DNA of 64,000 nt from Cytophagaceae bacterium (GTDB lineage Bacteria > Bacteroidota > Bacteroidia > Cytophagales > Cytophagaceae), in the NCBI GenBank assembly GCA_025455005.1, contig JALONH010000001.1, positions 1 through 64,000 on the forward strand, in the 5' to 3' direction. Under the pieces are notes generated by a model. The model worked only from the letters and a program-made list of their open reading frames with translations. It did no database searches and had not been told where the DNA came from. Every line of letters begins with the position of its first letter. The first letter of the stretch is position 1. Positions 55,686 through 61,710 of the stretch are shown here, piece by piece. The translations under genes and the position numbers were made by a program.

Positions 55686-56564
55686 ATGCTGGTAGCTATA
55701 TTCGGTCGACCTTTCAAAGAAGATAATATTCCGGCGATACAACTTTTATTGTATCGTTTATTGGATAAAGGAGTACGGCTATGCTTACACCAAGAATTTG
55801 CCAGCTATTTAGAACAAGTATCTATTGATTTCCCAATCACAAGTGAGCGATTCACCTCCGCATTCGATTTACCGGAAGCGGATTTTGTTATTAGTATCGG
55901 CGGAGATGGTACACTTTTAGAAACCGTCACATTTGTGGGATCAAAAGAAATCCCAATTGTAGGGATTAATACCGGTAGATTAGGATTTTTGGCTGCTACG
56001 CGAAGAGAAGAAATAGAAATTGCAATTGATGAATTAATTTCGAAACATTATAGAATTTCGGAACGTACATTACTAAAATTAATTTCTAATGTAGATTTAT
56101 TTGCTGGAATTGATTTTGCTTTGAATGAATTAACGATTTCAAAAATAGATTCCTCCTCAATGATTACGGTTCATACCTATGTAGATGGTGAGTTCTTAAA
56201 TTCGTATTGGGCAGATGGCCTAATTGTAAGTACCCCAACAGGGTCTACTGGTTATTCATTGAGTTGCGGAGGGCCTTTGATGCACCCTAGTACACAGAAT
56301 TTCATCATAACACCTATAAGTCCACATAATCTTAATGTAAGACCTATGGTGATTTCAGACGAATCTTATGTGTCCTTCGAAATCGAAGGAAGAAGTCAAA
56401 ATTTTCTAATATCCTTAGATTCAAGATCTAAGATTGTTTCATCGGATATAAAGTTAGCCTTAAAAAAAGAGTCTTTTAAAGTTAAACTCATTGAATTAAA
56501 GACAAATAGCTACTTTAAAACCCTTCGAAGCAAACTTAATTGGGGTTTTGATGCAAGAAATTAG
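55686..56564 (+). CDS. nadK: NAD kinase
   Basis: This 292-residue enzyme phosphorylates NAD+ to NADP+. The GGDGT motif is in SIGGDGTLLETVTF, with the catalytic Asp. NTGRLGFLAATRREE, LNELTIS, and TPTGSTGYSLSCGGPLMHP are the other NAD-binding landmarks. ITPISPHNLNVRPMVISDES also fits. It lies 4 bp after the CBS gene. Interestingly, the kynurenine pathway genes at 31985-35138, also NAD-related, are not linked. Confidence 0.96.
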   Translation: MLVAIFGRPFKEDNIPAIQLLLYRLLDKGVRLCLHQEFASYLEQVSIDFPITSERFTSAFDLPEADFVISIGGDGTLLETVTFVGSKEIPIVGINTGRLGFLAATRREEIEIAIDELISKHYRISERTLLKLISNVDLFAGIDFALNELTISKIDSSSMITVHTYVDGEFLNSYWADGLIVSTPTGSTGYSLSCGGPLMHPSTQNFIITPISPHNLNVRPMVISDESYVSFEIEGRSQNFLISLDSRSKIVSSDIKLALKKESFKVKLIELKTNSYFKTLRSKLNWGFDARN

Positions 56565-56638
56565 GCAAATATTTATATATTTGGAATGAATAGAAATATT
56601 TATAGGTAAGTGTTATCATATTTAGTTTGCTCAACTAC

Positions 56639-57616
56639 ATGAAAAAAGTATATTCCTTTTTAATTGTATTTTCTTTCGCTTGTGTTACCCAAACAACATT
56701 TGCACAACAAAGCTTTAAGAAAAACAGATATTTCAGTATAGGCGGATGCCTTAACGCGATGAACTATGTAGGGGATTTGGATCCAGGTCCCAGCTTTTTA
56801 AGCCCAAGTATAAAATTTACACGATATAACTTTGGAATTACGGCATTATACAGAATCCAGCCGCGCGTTTCATTAAGAGGTACATTCTCGTACGGTCGTT
56901 TTAAAGGGTCGGATGCGGAATCGTCAAATTTTGATGACAAAAACGTAAACCGTTTGTATCGAAATCTTTCTTTTCGCAATCAAGTGTACGAATTTAAATT
57001 TGACGTTGTAGTCGATTTATTCGAAAATAGAGGTAAATATTCAAAGCGCCCAGATTATACACCTTACCTTTTTGCTGGATTAGCTTACTTTCATCATAAT
57101 CCGGAGGGTCTTACCCCAGGAGGATCATGGGTAGACTTAAGAAGTTTAAATACAGAGGGACAGGGTCTAGAAGGTGGAGCAAACCCATATTCACTTCATC
57201 AAATTGCTATACCTTTAGGAATTGGTTTCCGTTATAAATTGGCTAAACACCTGGATTTAGCTTTTGAAATTGGCTGGAGATTTACTACAACAGACTATTT
57301 AGATGATGTTGGAGGCAAATATTATGATAAAGAGAAATTAGCAGCTGCTAATGGCGAACTAGCTGTAGTCATGTCCGATCGTTCGTATGAAGGGTATCTT
57401 TCCAATCCGGAAGTGCAACAATCAGCAAATGAGGATTATGCGCAAGCCATTATATCTCCTTATCCCGGAAGTCCTCAATATCTAAGTATCAACGGTTATG
57501 GTGCCCCTGGTGATCAAAGGGGAGATATTAAAGGAAGACGGGATACCTATATAATAACAGGGTTCCATTTGACGTATATATTACCGGAGAAGGTAATATG
57601 TCCAAAATTCAGATAA
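56639..57616 (+). CDS. DUF6089-type outer-membrane protein
   Basis: This 325-residue protein has a signal peptide (MKKVYSFLIVFSFACV to TFAQQ) and the family pattern SIGGCLNAMNYVGDLDPGP. DVVVDLFENRGKYSKRPDYT and TPYLFAGLAYFHHNPEG follow, and HLDLAFEIGWRFTTTDYLDD near residue 215. The function is unknown; it is probably a small barrel. Such proteins regularly precede uppS-bamA in Bacteroidota. A TATATTTG box (56576-56583) lies upstream, but no -33 element is seen at normal spacing. Confidence 0.85.
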   Translation: MKKVYSFLIVFSFACVTQTTFAQQSFKKNRYFSIGGCLNAMNYVGDLDPGPSFLSPSIKFTRYNFGITALYRIQPRVSLRGTFSYGRFKGSDAESSNFDDKNVNRLYRNLSFRNQVYEFKFDVVVDLFENRGKYSKRPDYTPYLFAGLAYFHHNPEGLTPGGSWVDLRSLNTEGQGLEGGANPYSLHQIAIPLGIGFRYKLAKHLDLAFEIGWRFTTTDYLDDVGGKYYDKEKLAAANGELAVVMSDRSYEGYLSNPEVQQSANEDYAQAIISPYPGSPQYLSINGYGAPGDQRGDIKGRRDTYIITGFHLTYILPEKVICPKFR

Positions 57617-57624
57617 ATAGAAAA

Positions 57625-58329
57625 ATGAAAATCAGTTTTGCTAAAACGATAGTGAAGTCTTTCTTCACTATCGTTTTTGTTTGTTTAGGCCAATGGGCTG
57701 CTGCCCAAGTACACGAGATTGGGCTTAGTGCCGGAGTGTCTGCCTATAGTGGAGATATAATCCAACACATTGATTGGTTGCACCCACGTCCATCCGGTCA
57801 ACTTTTTTATAGAGCAAACTTTACTCACGTCTTTTCTTTAAAAGTGGCCGCAGGCTTAGGTGTTTTAGCCTCATCAGATGAGTCGTATGACAATCCAATG
57901 AACAACCAACGCGGGCATTCCTTTACCACTACGTATAACGAATTAACGGTAATGACTGAATATAATTTCTTAGACTATCGATATAATAGTAAAGACGATG
58001 TCTATCGATTTTCCCCTTATTTTACAATGGGATTAGGTTTATTATCCTTTAATAATGGAATTACACCACCGAATAATGCGGTCAATACCGGTTCCGGTGC
58101 TCCTGTAACTATCCCGTTTGGTGTAGGAATTAAATTTAGAACCCACTCCAATTGGAACTTTCAATGGCAGTTTATTGCCACTAAAACCTTTACAGATGCA
58201 CTGGACGGGTTATATGAATTGCCGTCAAACGTAAAATCGTATTCCAACCCTAATTCATTGGATTGGTACTATTTTACCGGTATCAGTGCCGGATACGTTT
58301 TCTATAAAGTCGATTGTCCTAAAAGATAG
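57625..58329 (+). CDS. DUF6089-type outer-membrane protein, second copy
   Basis: This 234-residue paralogue of the previous gene starts at the ATG at 57625, 8 bp after that gene's stop (an ATG at 57598 would overlap it). The signal peptide ends near WAAAQ. EIGLSAGVSAYSGDIIQHID, VMTEYNFLDYRYNSKDDVYR and SPYFTMGLGLLSFN match the family. The signal-peptide codons contain a perfect terminator-like hairpin (57643-57677), which may reduce expression. The last part overlaps the uppS upstream extension, which was rejected. Confidence 0.8.
   Translation: MKISFAKTIVKSFFTIVFVCLGQWAAAQVHEIGLSAGVSAYSGDIIQHIDWLHPRPSGQLFYRANFTHVFSLKVAAGLGVLASSDESYDNPMNNQRGHSFTTTYNELTVMTEYNFLDYRYNSKDDVYRFSPYFTMGLGLLSFNNGITPPNNAVNTGSGAPVTIPFGVGIKFRTHSNWNFQWQFIATKTFTDALDGLYELPSNVKSYSNPNSLDWYYFTGISAGYVFYKVDCPKR
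57643..57677 (+). terminator. Perfect hairpin with T run inside a signal-peptide coding region
   Basis: AAAACGATAGTGAAG (57643-57657) and CTTCACTATCGTTTT (57663-57677) form a perfect 15-bp stem with a 5-nt loop and are followed by TGTTTGTTT. It has the form of an intrinsic terminator, but lies in codons 7-18 of the second DUF6089 gene. It could attenuate transcription or mark an older gene boundary. Confidence 0.75.
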
Positions 58330-58359: not shown

Positions 58360-58367
58360 TAAATTTG
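58360..58367 (+). promoter_or_regulatory. Promoter -7 box of uppS-bamA
   Basis: TAAATTTG fits the TAnnTTTG consensus exactly, 11 bp before the uppS ATG. A TTG at 58342-58344 is 15 bp upstream, closer than usual for a -33 element. Confidence 0.5.
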
Positions 58368-58378
58368 CGGCTTGTTCT

Positions 58379-59137
58379 ATGTCAGAATTTCGTCATTTAA
58401 ATACACATCAGATACCTAAGCACATCGCCATCATAATGGATGGGAATGGTCGTTGGGCGAAACAACAAGGGTTTTTGAATAGAATTTTTGGTCATAAGCA
58501 TGCGTTACAATCCGTCCGAGACACCACAGAAGGATGCGTAGAACTAGGGGTTCAATATTTGACCTTATATGCATTTTCAACTGAAAATTGGAATCGTCCT
58601 GCTGAAGAAGTTCAAGCCTTAATGGAATTACTCGTAAATTCATTATTAGATGAAGTTCCCGGTTTGCATAAAAATGGTATCCGAGTGAATGCCATCGGCG
58701 ACTTGACCTCATTGCCATCTGTTTGCCAACAACAATTAAAAGAAGCAATGGCTAAGACACAGCACAATACAAAGCTAACACTAACGTTAGCGTTGAGTTA
58801 TAGTGGGAGAATGGAAATCACACAAGCGTGCAAACAGATAGCTTTACTAGTACAAAAAGGACTTTTGTCTATACAAGATATTTCTGAAAAAACAGTTTCT
58901 GATAATATGTATGACCCTACATTACCGGATCCTGAACTGATGATTCGAACTAGTGGAGAATTCAGAATAAGCAATTTCTTGTTGTGGCAATTAGCCTATA
59001 GTGAATTATTTATTACACCAACTTTATGGCCTGACTTTAGAAAAAAGGATTTGGCAGCGGCTATAGAGGATTATCAAAAAAGAGAGCGTAGGTTTGGGTT
59101 GACCAGCGAACAACTCAACGGGACAAAGGCAGTATGA
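58379..59137 (+). CDS. uppS: Isoprenyl transferase (undecaprenyl diphosphate synthase)
   Basis: This 252-residue cis-prenyltransferase makes the C55 lipid carrier for wall and polysaccharide synthesis. It has HIAIIMDGNGRWAKQQG with the catalytic Asp, TLYAFSTENWNRP, and MIRTSGEFRISNFLLWQLAY near the C-terminus. The ATG at 58379 is the family start; the long in-frame upstream stretch overlaps the previous gene. It overlaps bamA by 4 nt (ATGA). Confidence 0.97.
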   Translation: MSEFRHLNTHQIPKHIAIIMDGNGRWAKQQGFLNRIFGHKHALQSVRDTTEGCVELGVQYLTLYAFSTENWNRPAEEVQALMELLVNSLLDEVPGLHKNGIRVNAIGDLTSLPSVCQQQLKEAMAKTQHNTKLTLTLALSYSGRMEITQACKQIALLVQKGLLSIQDISEKTVSDNMYDPTLPDPELMIRTSGEFRISNFLLWQLAYSELFITPTLWPDFRKKDLAAAIEDYQKRERRFGLTSEQLNGTKAV

Positions 59138-61710
59138 AAAAGTTTTTTTTAGTAGGATTTCTAGTACTCTTGAGTTCTGTAGTGTGGAGTCAATCGAGAT
59201 TTGGAAGTAGACGAACATTTTTTAACGTGGATTATGAAAATCCTCAGCAATATTATATTGGGGGAATTACCGTGTCGGGTGTTGAATTCTTAGATCCGGA
59301 TGCTATTGTAGCATTAACAGGTTTAAAAGTAGGGGATAAGATTAATGTGCCCGGTGAAGATATTTCCAATGCCATTAAAAAATTGTGGGAACAAGGTTTA
59401 ATTGGAGATGTCAGTGTATCGGTATCTAAAGTAGAAGGTAAAACGATTTTCTTGAATTTCGAATTAAAAGAAAGACCTAGATTGTCTCGATTTATATTTG
59501 AGGGAGTAACCAAATCTGAAAAAGAAGATTTAGAAGGTAAAATCGATTTAGCCCGCGGAAACGTCGTTACGGACGCATTGATAAAAAATGCAACATATAA
59601 GATCAGAGAATTCTACTTAGAGAAAGGTTATTACAACGTTGAAGTAACTATACAACCTCCGATTAAGGATACAATTTTAGATAACAATGTTATTCTTAAA
59701 GTAGTCGTCCAAAAAAATAAAAAAGTTCATGTAAATAAAATTTTTATAGAAGGTGATTCTCTACTTTCTCAGAAAGAAATCATTTCAAAAATGAAAAAAA
59801 CAAAACCGTCTCAAGCATCTAATCTGTGGACGGGCTCAAAGATGATTCGTAAAACATACGAAGATGAAAAAGCAGCTGTTATTAATTTTTATAACTCTAA
59901 AGGATATAGAGATGCACAAATCATAACGGATTCCGTTGTGGCTTCTAAACAGGACAAAGTAGATATATATATAACACTGGATGAAGGAAGAAAATATTAT
60001 TTTAGAAACATAGTTTGGAAGGGCAACTATGTTTATACGGATAAGGTATTAAACGAAATATTAGGCATCAAAAAAGGAGATGTTTATAATTTTGAGTTAT
60101 TAGAAAAACGGCTAAGTTTTAATCCATCCGGAGTAGATGTTAGTTCTCTATACTTAGATAATGGATATCTGTTTTTCAGTGTAGATCCGGTAGAAGTTTT
60201 GGTCGAGGGAGATTCGATAGACTTAGAGCTAAGAATATTTGAAGGAGAGCAAGCCCTTATTGATAAAATTGTTATTTCAGGGAATACTAAAACACATGAC
60301 CATGTAATCCAACGAGAGGTAAAAACCTATCCCGGTGATAAGTTTAGTCGATCAGATTTAATTCGCACGCAACGAGAATTAGCTGCCCTTAATTATTTTG
60401 ATAATGAAAGTTTAGGATTAAATCCAATACCTAATCCAACAAAAGGTACGGTAGATGTAGGGTATAGTGTAAAAGAAAAACCGAACGATCAAATAGAGCT
60501 ATCCGGAGGGTATGGAGGGTTCTTTGGATTTGTAGGTACCGTTGGCGTTGTGTTTAATAATTTTTCAGCTAAGAATATAACGAATTTTAAAAAATGGAAT
60601 CCAGTTCCTTCCGGAGATGGACAACGTTTAGCGTTCCGCGTTCAAGCGAATGGTCGTACATTTCAAACCTATTCCGTTTCTTTTACAGAGCCATGGTTAG
60701 GTGGTCGAAAGCCTACTTCATTAAATGTAAGTTTATCCCATTCTGTTCAATCTAGAATGCAACCCGGAGTTCGTCCATTGAAGAAAATTGGTTCTTTACA
60801 AGTGACCAGTTTATCTGTGACTATAGGGAGACGATTAAAATGGCCGGATGAATATTTTAATATATCTCACGGGTTAGCATTTACCCGTTATACCTTGGAT
60901 AACTACGACTTTAGAAATTCATCTCAAGCGCTAGGATTTACTACCGGATATGCTAATAATATAAACTATACTCTCACTATATCAAGGAATAATATAGACA
61001 ACTTCCAATTCCCAACAACAGGTGGTAATATAGCACTAAGTTTAAGCCTAACACCTCCTTACTCAGCGTTCAATGGAGTGAATTATGAGGACCCGAATTT
61101 AGATCCTAAGTTACGTTACCGTTGGGTAGAGTACCATAAGTGGAATTTTGATTTCTCATGGTTTACACCGGTTTGGCAACATGTTAAAAATAATAAAACA
61201 ACGAAGCACAAATTAATCTTCCATACACGTTTTCACTTCGGATTAATCGGTTCATATAATCCACAAGTAGGTATTGGTCCCTTTGAGCGTTTCATAATGG
61301 GGGGTGATGGTTTATCCGGATTTAACTTTTTGTTAGGTTCAGATATCATTGGTCTAAGAGGGTACCTAAATAATACCATTAAACCTAACGACGCTGATCC
61401 AATCAGTGCGGCTGCCGGTGGAATCGCATTTGATAAGTTTGTAGCAGAACTGCGATACCCACTTTCGAATAGTCCGGCATTTTCTATCTTTGTATTAGGC
61501 TTTTTTGAGGCCGGAAATACTTGGGGTAATATTCGAGATATAAATCCGTTTGAAGTATACCGATCAGCCGGTTTTGGTACACGAATCTTTATGCCTGCCT
61601 TTGGATTAATTGGTATAGATTGGGGGGTACCGTTGGATTACGTTCCTGGAACTACAAATCCGGCATTTAAACCACATATTACTTTCTCTATCGGACAACA
61701 AATTCGTTAA
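59134..61710 (+). CDS. bamA: Outer-membrane protein assembly factor BamA
   Basis: This 858-residue Omp85 protein inserts barrels into the outer membrane. It has a signal peptide (residues 1-20), five POTRA domains (about 45-460) and a 16-stranded C-terminal barrel. GGITVSGVEFLDPDAIVALT begins POTRA 1 and DKIVISGNTKTHDHVIQREV begins a later POTRA. The barrel carries FMGGDGLSGF-like loop residues (FERFIMGGDGLSGFNFL) and GLRGYLNN. The final strand ends in ITFSIGQQIR, without the usual terminal Phe. The two periplasmic Skp-like chaperone genes follow immediately. Confidence 0.97.
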   Translation: MKKFFLVGFLVLLSSVVWSQSRFGSRRTFFNVDYENPQQYYIGGITVSGVEFLDPDAIVALTGLKVGDKINVPGEDISNAIKKLWEQGLIGDVSVSVSKVEGKTIFLNFELKERPRLSRFIFEGVTKSEKEDLEGKIDLARGNVVTDALIKNATYKIREFYLEKGYYNVEVTIQPPIKDTILDNNVILKVVVQKNKKVHVNKIFIEGDSLLSQKEIISKMKKTKPSQASNLWTGSKMIRKTYEDEKAAVINFYNSKGYRDAQIITDSVVASKQDKVDIYITLDEGRKYYFRNIVWKGNYVYTDKVLNEILGIKKGDVYNFELLEKRLSFNPSGVDVSSLYLDNGYLFFSVDPVEVLVEGDSIDLELRIFEGEQALIDKIVISGNTKTHDHVIQREVKTYPGDKFSRSDLIRTQRELAALNYFDNESLGLNPIPNPTKGTVDVGYSVKEKPNDQIELSGGYGGFFGFVGTVGVVFNNFSAKNITNFKKWNPVPSGDGQRLAFRVQANGRTFQTYSVSFTEPWLGGRKPTSLNVSLSHSVQSRMQPGVRPLKKIGSLQVTSLSVTIGRRLKWPDEYFNISHGLAFTRYTLDNYDFRNSSQALGFTTGYANNINYTLTISRNNIDNFQFPTTGGNIALSLSLTPPYSAFNGVNYEDPNLDPKLRYRWVEYHKWNFDFSWFTPVWQHVKNNKTTKHKLIFHTRFHFGLIGSYNPQVGIGPFERFIMGGDGLSGFNFLLGSDIIGLRGYLNNTIKPNDADPISAAAGGIAFDKFVAELRYPLSNSPAFSIFVLGFFEAGNTWGNIRDINPFEVYRSAGFGTRIFMPAFGLIGIDWGVPLDYVPGTTNPAFKPHITFSIGQQIR

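Follow-up and report, generated by a model that had tools for sequence, protein, structure and literature searches.

A Terminator-Like Hairpin within the Signal-Peptide Codons of porG Recurs among Cytophagales and Probably Limits porG Expression

In the frd-ampC overlap of Escherichia coli, reportedly described by Jaurin in 1981 and Bergstrom in 1983, the terminator of the upstream operon is said to lie at the start of the ampC transcript and to throttle ampC; the attenuator hairpin is reportedly in the untranslated leader, and ampC is said to have its own promoter. The locus described here resembles ampC in that the putative terminator of an upstream unit lies at the start of a downstream gene, porG, and differs in that the hairpin is found within signal-peptide codons. 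The presumed terminator is situated in a type IX secretion gene, next to a paralog whose cysteine tail is similar, and it appears to have had more than one origin.

At pil1 of Streptococcus gallolyticus, a premature stem-loop terminator is destabilized by ribosomes (PMC3894217). The likeness to porG lies in the premature stem-loop; the difference is that pil1 is controlled through a separate leader peptide with repeats, whereas the porG terminator would be in the structural gene itself, where control by ribosomes is hypothetical. Another intrinsic terminator near a start codon is tR2, which terminates efficiently in E. coli when it lies ∼30 bp after the start codon, within the initial 100 bp of an open reading frame (ORF) (PMC4824070); tR2 was placed there in an engineered construct and, unlike the porG hairpin, the arrangement is neither natural nor conserved. 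Premature 3′ ends in 5′ untranslated regions and ORFs of E. coli (PMC7815308) share with porG the notion of near-start termination as possible regulation, but they were mapped by RNA sequencing over many genes, whereas porG is one gene, approached by comparison. We searched the open-access literature on DUF6089, PorG, and intragenic and Bacteroidetes coding-sequence terminators, and no description of the porG element was found among the matches listed.

The window, i.e., the whole stretch of DNA analyzed, comprises 64,000 nucleotides of a Cytophagaceae bacterium (contig JALONH010000001.1) and contains, on the forward strand, the gene order nadK, DUFa, porG, uppS, bamA. The upstream gene, nadK (NAD kinase, 55686 to 56564), matches Pfam NAD_kinase and NAD_kinase_C. 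It is followed by DUFa (56639 to 57616), the first of two DUF6089 genes and a porG-like paralog whose T9SS_PorG score of 109.3 bits is below the cutoff of 130. The second DUF6089 gene (57625 to 58329) scores 173.9 bits with the same model (NF052316; cutoff, 130), which identifies it as the type IX secretion gene porG. Downstream are uppS, encoding isoprenyl transferase (58379 to 59137; TIGR00055, 284.1 bits with a cutoff of 109.55), and bamA (59134 to 61710; TIGR03303, 323.5 bits with a cutoff of 297.15). The PorG C terminus, KVDCPKR (58306 to 58326), is a cysteine tail of the kind that marks T9SS PorG; DUFa also ends in a cysteine tail, KVICPKFR (57590 to 57613). In F. johnsoniae, PorG is disulfide linked to GldK via its C-terminal cysteine tail (PMC12635249), and DUFa may be a second disulfide partner like PorG. 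The porG start was placed at 57625, a position that corresponds to the first ATG in each of the three nearest relatives (L002 to L004); an alternative in-frame ATG is found at 57598. This alternative ATG is covered by another predicted hairpin, at 57576 to 57601 (ATATATTACC / GGTAATATGT), formed by the last DUFa codons, and a different short stem is present at a similar place in L002 and L003 (group g8).

The original prediction, a perfect 15-bp stem with a T-rich 3′ flank in codons 7 to 18 of the second DUF6089 gene, was confirmed with the start at 57625. The 5′ arm (57643 to 57657, codons 7 to 11) and the 3′ arm (57663 to 57677), both given for the plus strand, are complementary at 15 of 15 positions and enclose the 5-nt loop TCTTT (57658 to 57662). 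The core scored as a terminator spans 57647 to 57673, and the T-rich tail TTTTTGTTTGTTT (57674 to 57686) overlaps the A-T pairs at the end of the 15-bp stem; the sequence from 57674 onward reads TTTTTGTTTGTTTAG. The T run flanks the core on one side only. Folding of the 81-nt segment with the hairpin yields −25.8 kcal/mol compared to a shuffled mean of −12.2 kcal/mol (z = −5.2; 0/200 shuffles). The core itself has a stability of −14.9 kcal/mol and a d of 17.0 by the d'Aubenton-Carafa formula, in which d > 0 denotes a terminator-scoring hairpin; it combines a stable, C-G-containing stem with a T run directly after it. A scan of 14 kb yielded 13 terminator-like sites, of which the porG hairpin has the longest stem.

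To place the hairpin in a wider context, we used the best-scoring 140 of 315 matching genomes plus one further locus (L071), a nonrandom set in which genera repeat. L015 and L056, in which the gene start is missing, were left out. Seventeen distant named loci (L072 to L088) were set aside from the synonymous-draw, upstream-gene, Phe, promoter-motif, antiterminator, tail-T, and stem-energy counts, and L071 was also set aside from the lineage and gap counts. Of 121 Cytophagales loci, 40 carry a d > 0 hairpin in the 5′ codons of porG, compared to 0.57 expected from synonymous draws that keep the protein and the codon usage of the gene, and the score of the window's own hairpin was reached in 0/300 such draws. 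These counts bear out the earlier claim that chance formation of the hairpin is unlikely. Stem energy alone gives a consistent picture: 30/118 loci (3 of the 121 were too short) are at ≤1/100 draws, compared to 3/118 and 4/118 in two internal control regions. The position is kept as well. Relative to a conserved Glu codon just after the signal peptide, the d > 0 hairpins of 138 loci end within the 100 nt upstream in 42 cases, in the 200 nt preceding that interval in 11 cases, and in the 650 nt downstream of this codon in 1 case. A further batch of 20 loci has the hairpin in the porG codons of 14.

By lineage, with genus labels transferred by hand from tables, the hairpin is at or in the porG start in 41/120 loci, representing 20/60 genera and 9/17 families. 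These 41 hairpins were classed as coding by position (3′ end from −110 to −25) rather than by a known start codon; 29 follow an in-frame ATG, 4 span the ATG, and 1 (L125) precedes it. In the other seven loci (L010, L011, L012, L014, L128, L134, and L135), no in-frame ATG is found before the hairpin, and porG may start at another codon or elsewhere. A d > 0 hairpin is placed upstream in 11 more loci. The element is not essential, because 68/120 loci, including 49/100 with DUFa upstream and 6/17 with a long gap before porG, have none. Between lineages, the arms differ in sequence and offset and the loops range from 3 to 9 nt; the differences in arms suggest that the hairpin arose repeatedly in separate lineages. 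At the class level, no d > 0 hairpin was detected from −450 to +700 relative to the match in the best 30 of 144 matching genomes, 29 of which are from other orders and 12 of which have a porG-like gene directly upstream. On this 30-locus sample, the element looks restricted to Cytophagales.

An internal control region yields at least as many hairpins of −9 kcal/mol or below (79 loci) as the signal-peptide region does (68 loci), but at least 6 T in the 8 nt after the hairpin are present in 0/79 and 40/68, respectively. The T content of these tails exceeds the need imposed by the amino acids modestly (5.44 versus 4.84 of 8; 10/68 at P ≤ 0.05).

Within groups of related loci, all of them chosen for showing the hairpin, the stem bears marks of selection beyond the protein. 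In nine sequences of the window's own family (9/17 f1 loci, alignment A5), 93.3% of stem cells pair, and sliding of the arms lowers pairing to 60 to 69%; 7/15 pairs changed on both sides, a number matched in 1/500 shuffles, and the covariation score was matched in 0/500. Covariation is weak in g59 (9/12 loci; 2/12 pairs changed on both sides; 28/500 shuffles as high) and g37 (5/5 loci; 1/9 pairs; 53/500 shuffles). In f13 (13/14 loci, L165 dropped), the stem is near invariant, with 98.9% pairing and no pair changed on both sides, and the codon identity at conserved residues is 0.97 in the arms and tail (10 columns) versus 0.60 elsewhere (122 columns). Synonymous codon identity is likewise higher in the arms and tail than outside in g59 (0.98 versus 0.60), g37 (0.81 versus 0.64), g6 (1.00 versus 0.81; 4/4 loci), and g8 (0.96 versus 0.74; 3/3 loci). 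Conservation of the stem in relatives, which the original prediction had named as a check, was thus found as a kept position, own-family covariation, and selection at synonymous sites, and the element is very likely real and under selection.

Such a hairpin at a gene start is unusual in the parts of the two genomes that were surveyed. In the window's own genome (463 kb, 337 ORFs of ≥100 amino acids), porG is the sole ORF with a d > 0 hairpin clearly within the first 100 nt; five other hairpins at 5′ ends terminate 11 to 15 nt past the start of longest ORFs that are probably overextended at this end. Likewise in the relative G341 (400 kb, 345 ORFs), porG has a d > 0 hairpin clearly within the first 100 nt. 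There, nine other 5′-end matches include seven that end ≤28 nt from probably overextended starts, one located 81 nt into an ORF of doubtful status, and another that is 101 nt in, before the first ATG; four d > 0 hairpins are deeper within ORFs. In both censuses, the ORFs are greedy longest ORFs rather than annotated genes. Two d > 0 hairpins of the own genome are found deep in long sense ORFs (L182:8756-8777 and L184:13730-13745, 156 and 780 nt in, respectively). The palindrome core has a single copy in its own genome, which rules out a mobile or repeated palindrome, and a similarity search for the palindrome elsewhere returned weak partial matches and nothing more. A riboswitch or other described Rfam family was also rejected, as the whole window has no Rfam match at the gathering threshold. 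No useful match came from a sequence search of the PDB (best E value, 0.5).

Presence of the terminator follows the gene upstream of porG. A d > 0 terminator is found between −340 and −10 in 51/100 loci with DUFa upstream, 0/10 loci with nadK directly upstream, and 1/11 other loci. Its placement follows the space available: in all 40 coding-hairpin loci with DUFa, the DUFa end is ≤204 nt from the Glu codon, and in all 11 loci with an intergenic terminator, this distance is ≥232 nt; among the 17 long-gap loci, 11 have the terminator in the gap. The stem begins 21 to 140 nt after the DUFa stop, and this distance is never <21 nt in 51 loci. Ordinary terminators of G341 show similar spacing, with 76/83 beginning ≥21 nt after the stop codon, unlike those of the window's own genome, where 18/45 begin within 15 nt. 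The association with DUFa and the intergenic counterparts support, at the level of sequence, the earlier suggestion that transcripts arriving from the first DUF6089 gene are terminated at the hairpin. Dependence on uppS as the next gene was rejected: uppS was found in the retrieved downstream stretch of 73/121 loci, and g37 and g59 loci without uppS keep the hairpin. In six loci from two f11 genera (L107, L128, L134, L135, L136, and L150), other genes follow porG, no uppS was found nearby, and the hairpin is kept.

Comparison of the loci thus establishes an element that is under selection as RNA or DNA, is built like a terminator, and goes together with DUFa. Partial termination of the DUFa mRNA is the simplest mechanism consistent with these features. 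We consider it reasonably probable (∼0.7) that the hairpin is an intrinsic terminator that belongs to DUFa, is embedded in porG, and throttles porG. Because there is almost no spacing between DUFa and porG (8 nt from the DUFa stop to the porG ATG), the Rho-independent terminator of the DUFa transcript would sit inside the signal-peptide codons of porG. RNA polymerase from the DUFa promoter would mostly stop in the T-rich tail, at about 57675 to 57690, to yield DUFa mRNA, and the fraction that reads through would yield porG mRNA. uppS and bamA probably have their own promoter downstream of porG, so porG would be the gene that is specifically throttled. The hairpin thereby probably limits the amount of the porG product; we infer termination in the cell, its extent, the promoter positions, and the purpose, a high DUFa-to-PorG ratio. 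Every porG transcript must pass the putative terminator in its first codons, and a conserved terminator would therefore make read-through part of porG expression. A stopped transcript would bear the porG start but lack a stop codon, which is noted as a cost in PMC4824070 for the construct described there.

Among other explanations, the complementarity could arise by chance or be driven by the protein, with Lys codons opposite Phe and Ile codons; signal-peptide AAA and TTT codons do pair, and A-T pairs extend this very stem. This is scarcely credible given the 40 hairpins seen where draws of synonymous codons under an unchanged protein and codon usage predict 0.57, and given that, bar the one doubtful G341 ORF, no other ORF clearly has a hairpin in its first 100 nt in the two genome parts sampled. 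For the set as a whole, chance Lys/Phe pairing was therefore rejected, and the stem-energy test agrees. A perfect inverted repeat at a gene start could also be the operator of a regulator, acting as DNA rather than RNA; the G-U pairs kept in relatives, the arms and loop lengths that change between lineages, and the T run on one side of the core only make this very improbable. Translational control, in which initiation on porG mRNA or the first steps of elongation would be impeded by the hairpin and the T tail would be a mere run of hydrophobic signal-peptide codons, draws on the start of the hairpin 18 nt after the ATG, on the four relatives in which it spans the first ATG (L020, L026, L063, and L129), and on the modest T excess of the tails. 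It is, however, decidedly unlikely: the 11 intergenic counterparts end tens of nucleotides to ∼200 nt upstream of porG, a placement from which most of them could not affect initiation, Phe in the tail is encoded by TTT in 62/62 cases versus 500/726 elsewhere (in loci picked for d > 0, which favors T), and the association with DUFa is left unexplained.

An attenuator gated by translation, the other option raised in the original prediction, would make the hairpin terminate only when no ribosome is on the first porG codons, with efficient initiation melting the stem. The hairpin does lie in translated codons, and its distance of at least 21 nt from the DUFa stop (51 loci) probably puts it beyond the reach of the DUFa ribosome and within that of the porG ribosome; the pil1 leader peptide is reported to work on a comparable principle (PMC3894217). 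Three observations speak against such a gate and leave it rather unlikely in our view. The terminator is upstream of porG in 11 loci. No conserved antiterminator was recognized: the 5′ arm pairs with the upstream 150 nt better than shuffled sequence (P ≤ 0.05) in 3/41 loci, compared to 2.05 expected, which excludes a general antiterminator helix, and the duplex of the 5′ arm with upstream sequence is ≥70% as strong as that of the terminator arms in 5/41 loci, so that single cases may exist. Finally, translation costs tR2 in E. coli, 30 bp after the start codon, only ∼10% of its efficiency (PMC4824070); ribosome gating would therefore be modest unless a pause helps. Neither hallmark of a leader-peptide attenuator, a separate short leader ORF and a mutually exclusive upstream antiterminator, was found, and apart from DUFa and porG, no plus-strand ORF of ≥20 amino acids in the window overlaps 57486 to 57690. 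It is quite unlikely that the hairpin is a terminator gated by translation that senses the state of the PorG signal peptide and has several independent origins in Cytophagales; if it were, whether a ribosome initiates and proceeds through the signal-peptide codons would decide porG transcription, and PorG supply would follow translation or export capacity. Under the preferred reading, a DUFa terminator embedded in porG, termination might, speculatively, still be lowered somewhat by a ribosome that occupies the first codons of porG, and the porG hairpin offers a natural test of ribosome protection of transcripts in Bacteroidota.

Candidate promoters are consistent with transcription units on both sides of porG. 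The −7 consensus of Bacteroidota is reported as TAnnTTTG (PMC7366714), and the window was scanned for the −7 box alone of the full TTG-N17-23-TANNTTTG pattern. On the plus strand, a candidate −7 box for DUFa, TATATTTG, is found at 56576 to 56583, and another, TAAATTTG, precedes uppS at 58360 to 58367. Across loci, the −7 motif is present upstream of DUFa in 11/19 coding-hairpin loci (2.6 expected) and 20/28 no-hairpin loci (3.0 expected), and upstream of uppS in 12/29 (3.0 expected) and 12/40 (4.2 expected), respectively; the uppS promoter box is not specific to hairpin loci. Since the motif is enriched before both DUFa and uppS, porG appears to fall between two transcription units and would then rely on read-through. 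In family f2 loci with an intergenic terminator (n = 7), a promoter-like TTG-N-TAAATTTG motif follows the terminator in three (L028, L132, and L139), and the TANNTTTG box alone is found in three more. An alternative layout of the junction, with a terminator near the DUFa stop and then a TANNTTTG box before porG, is seen in L028, L096, L099, L100, L132, and L139 of this family.
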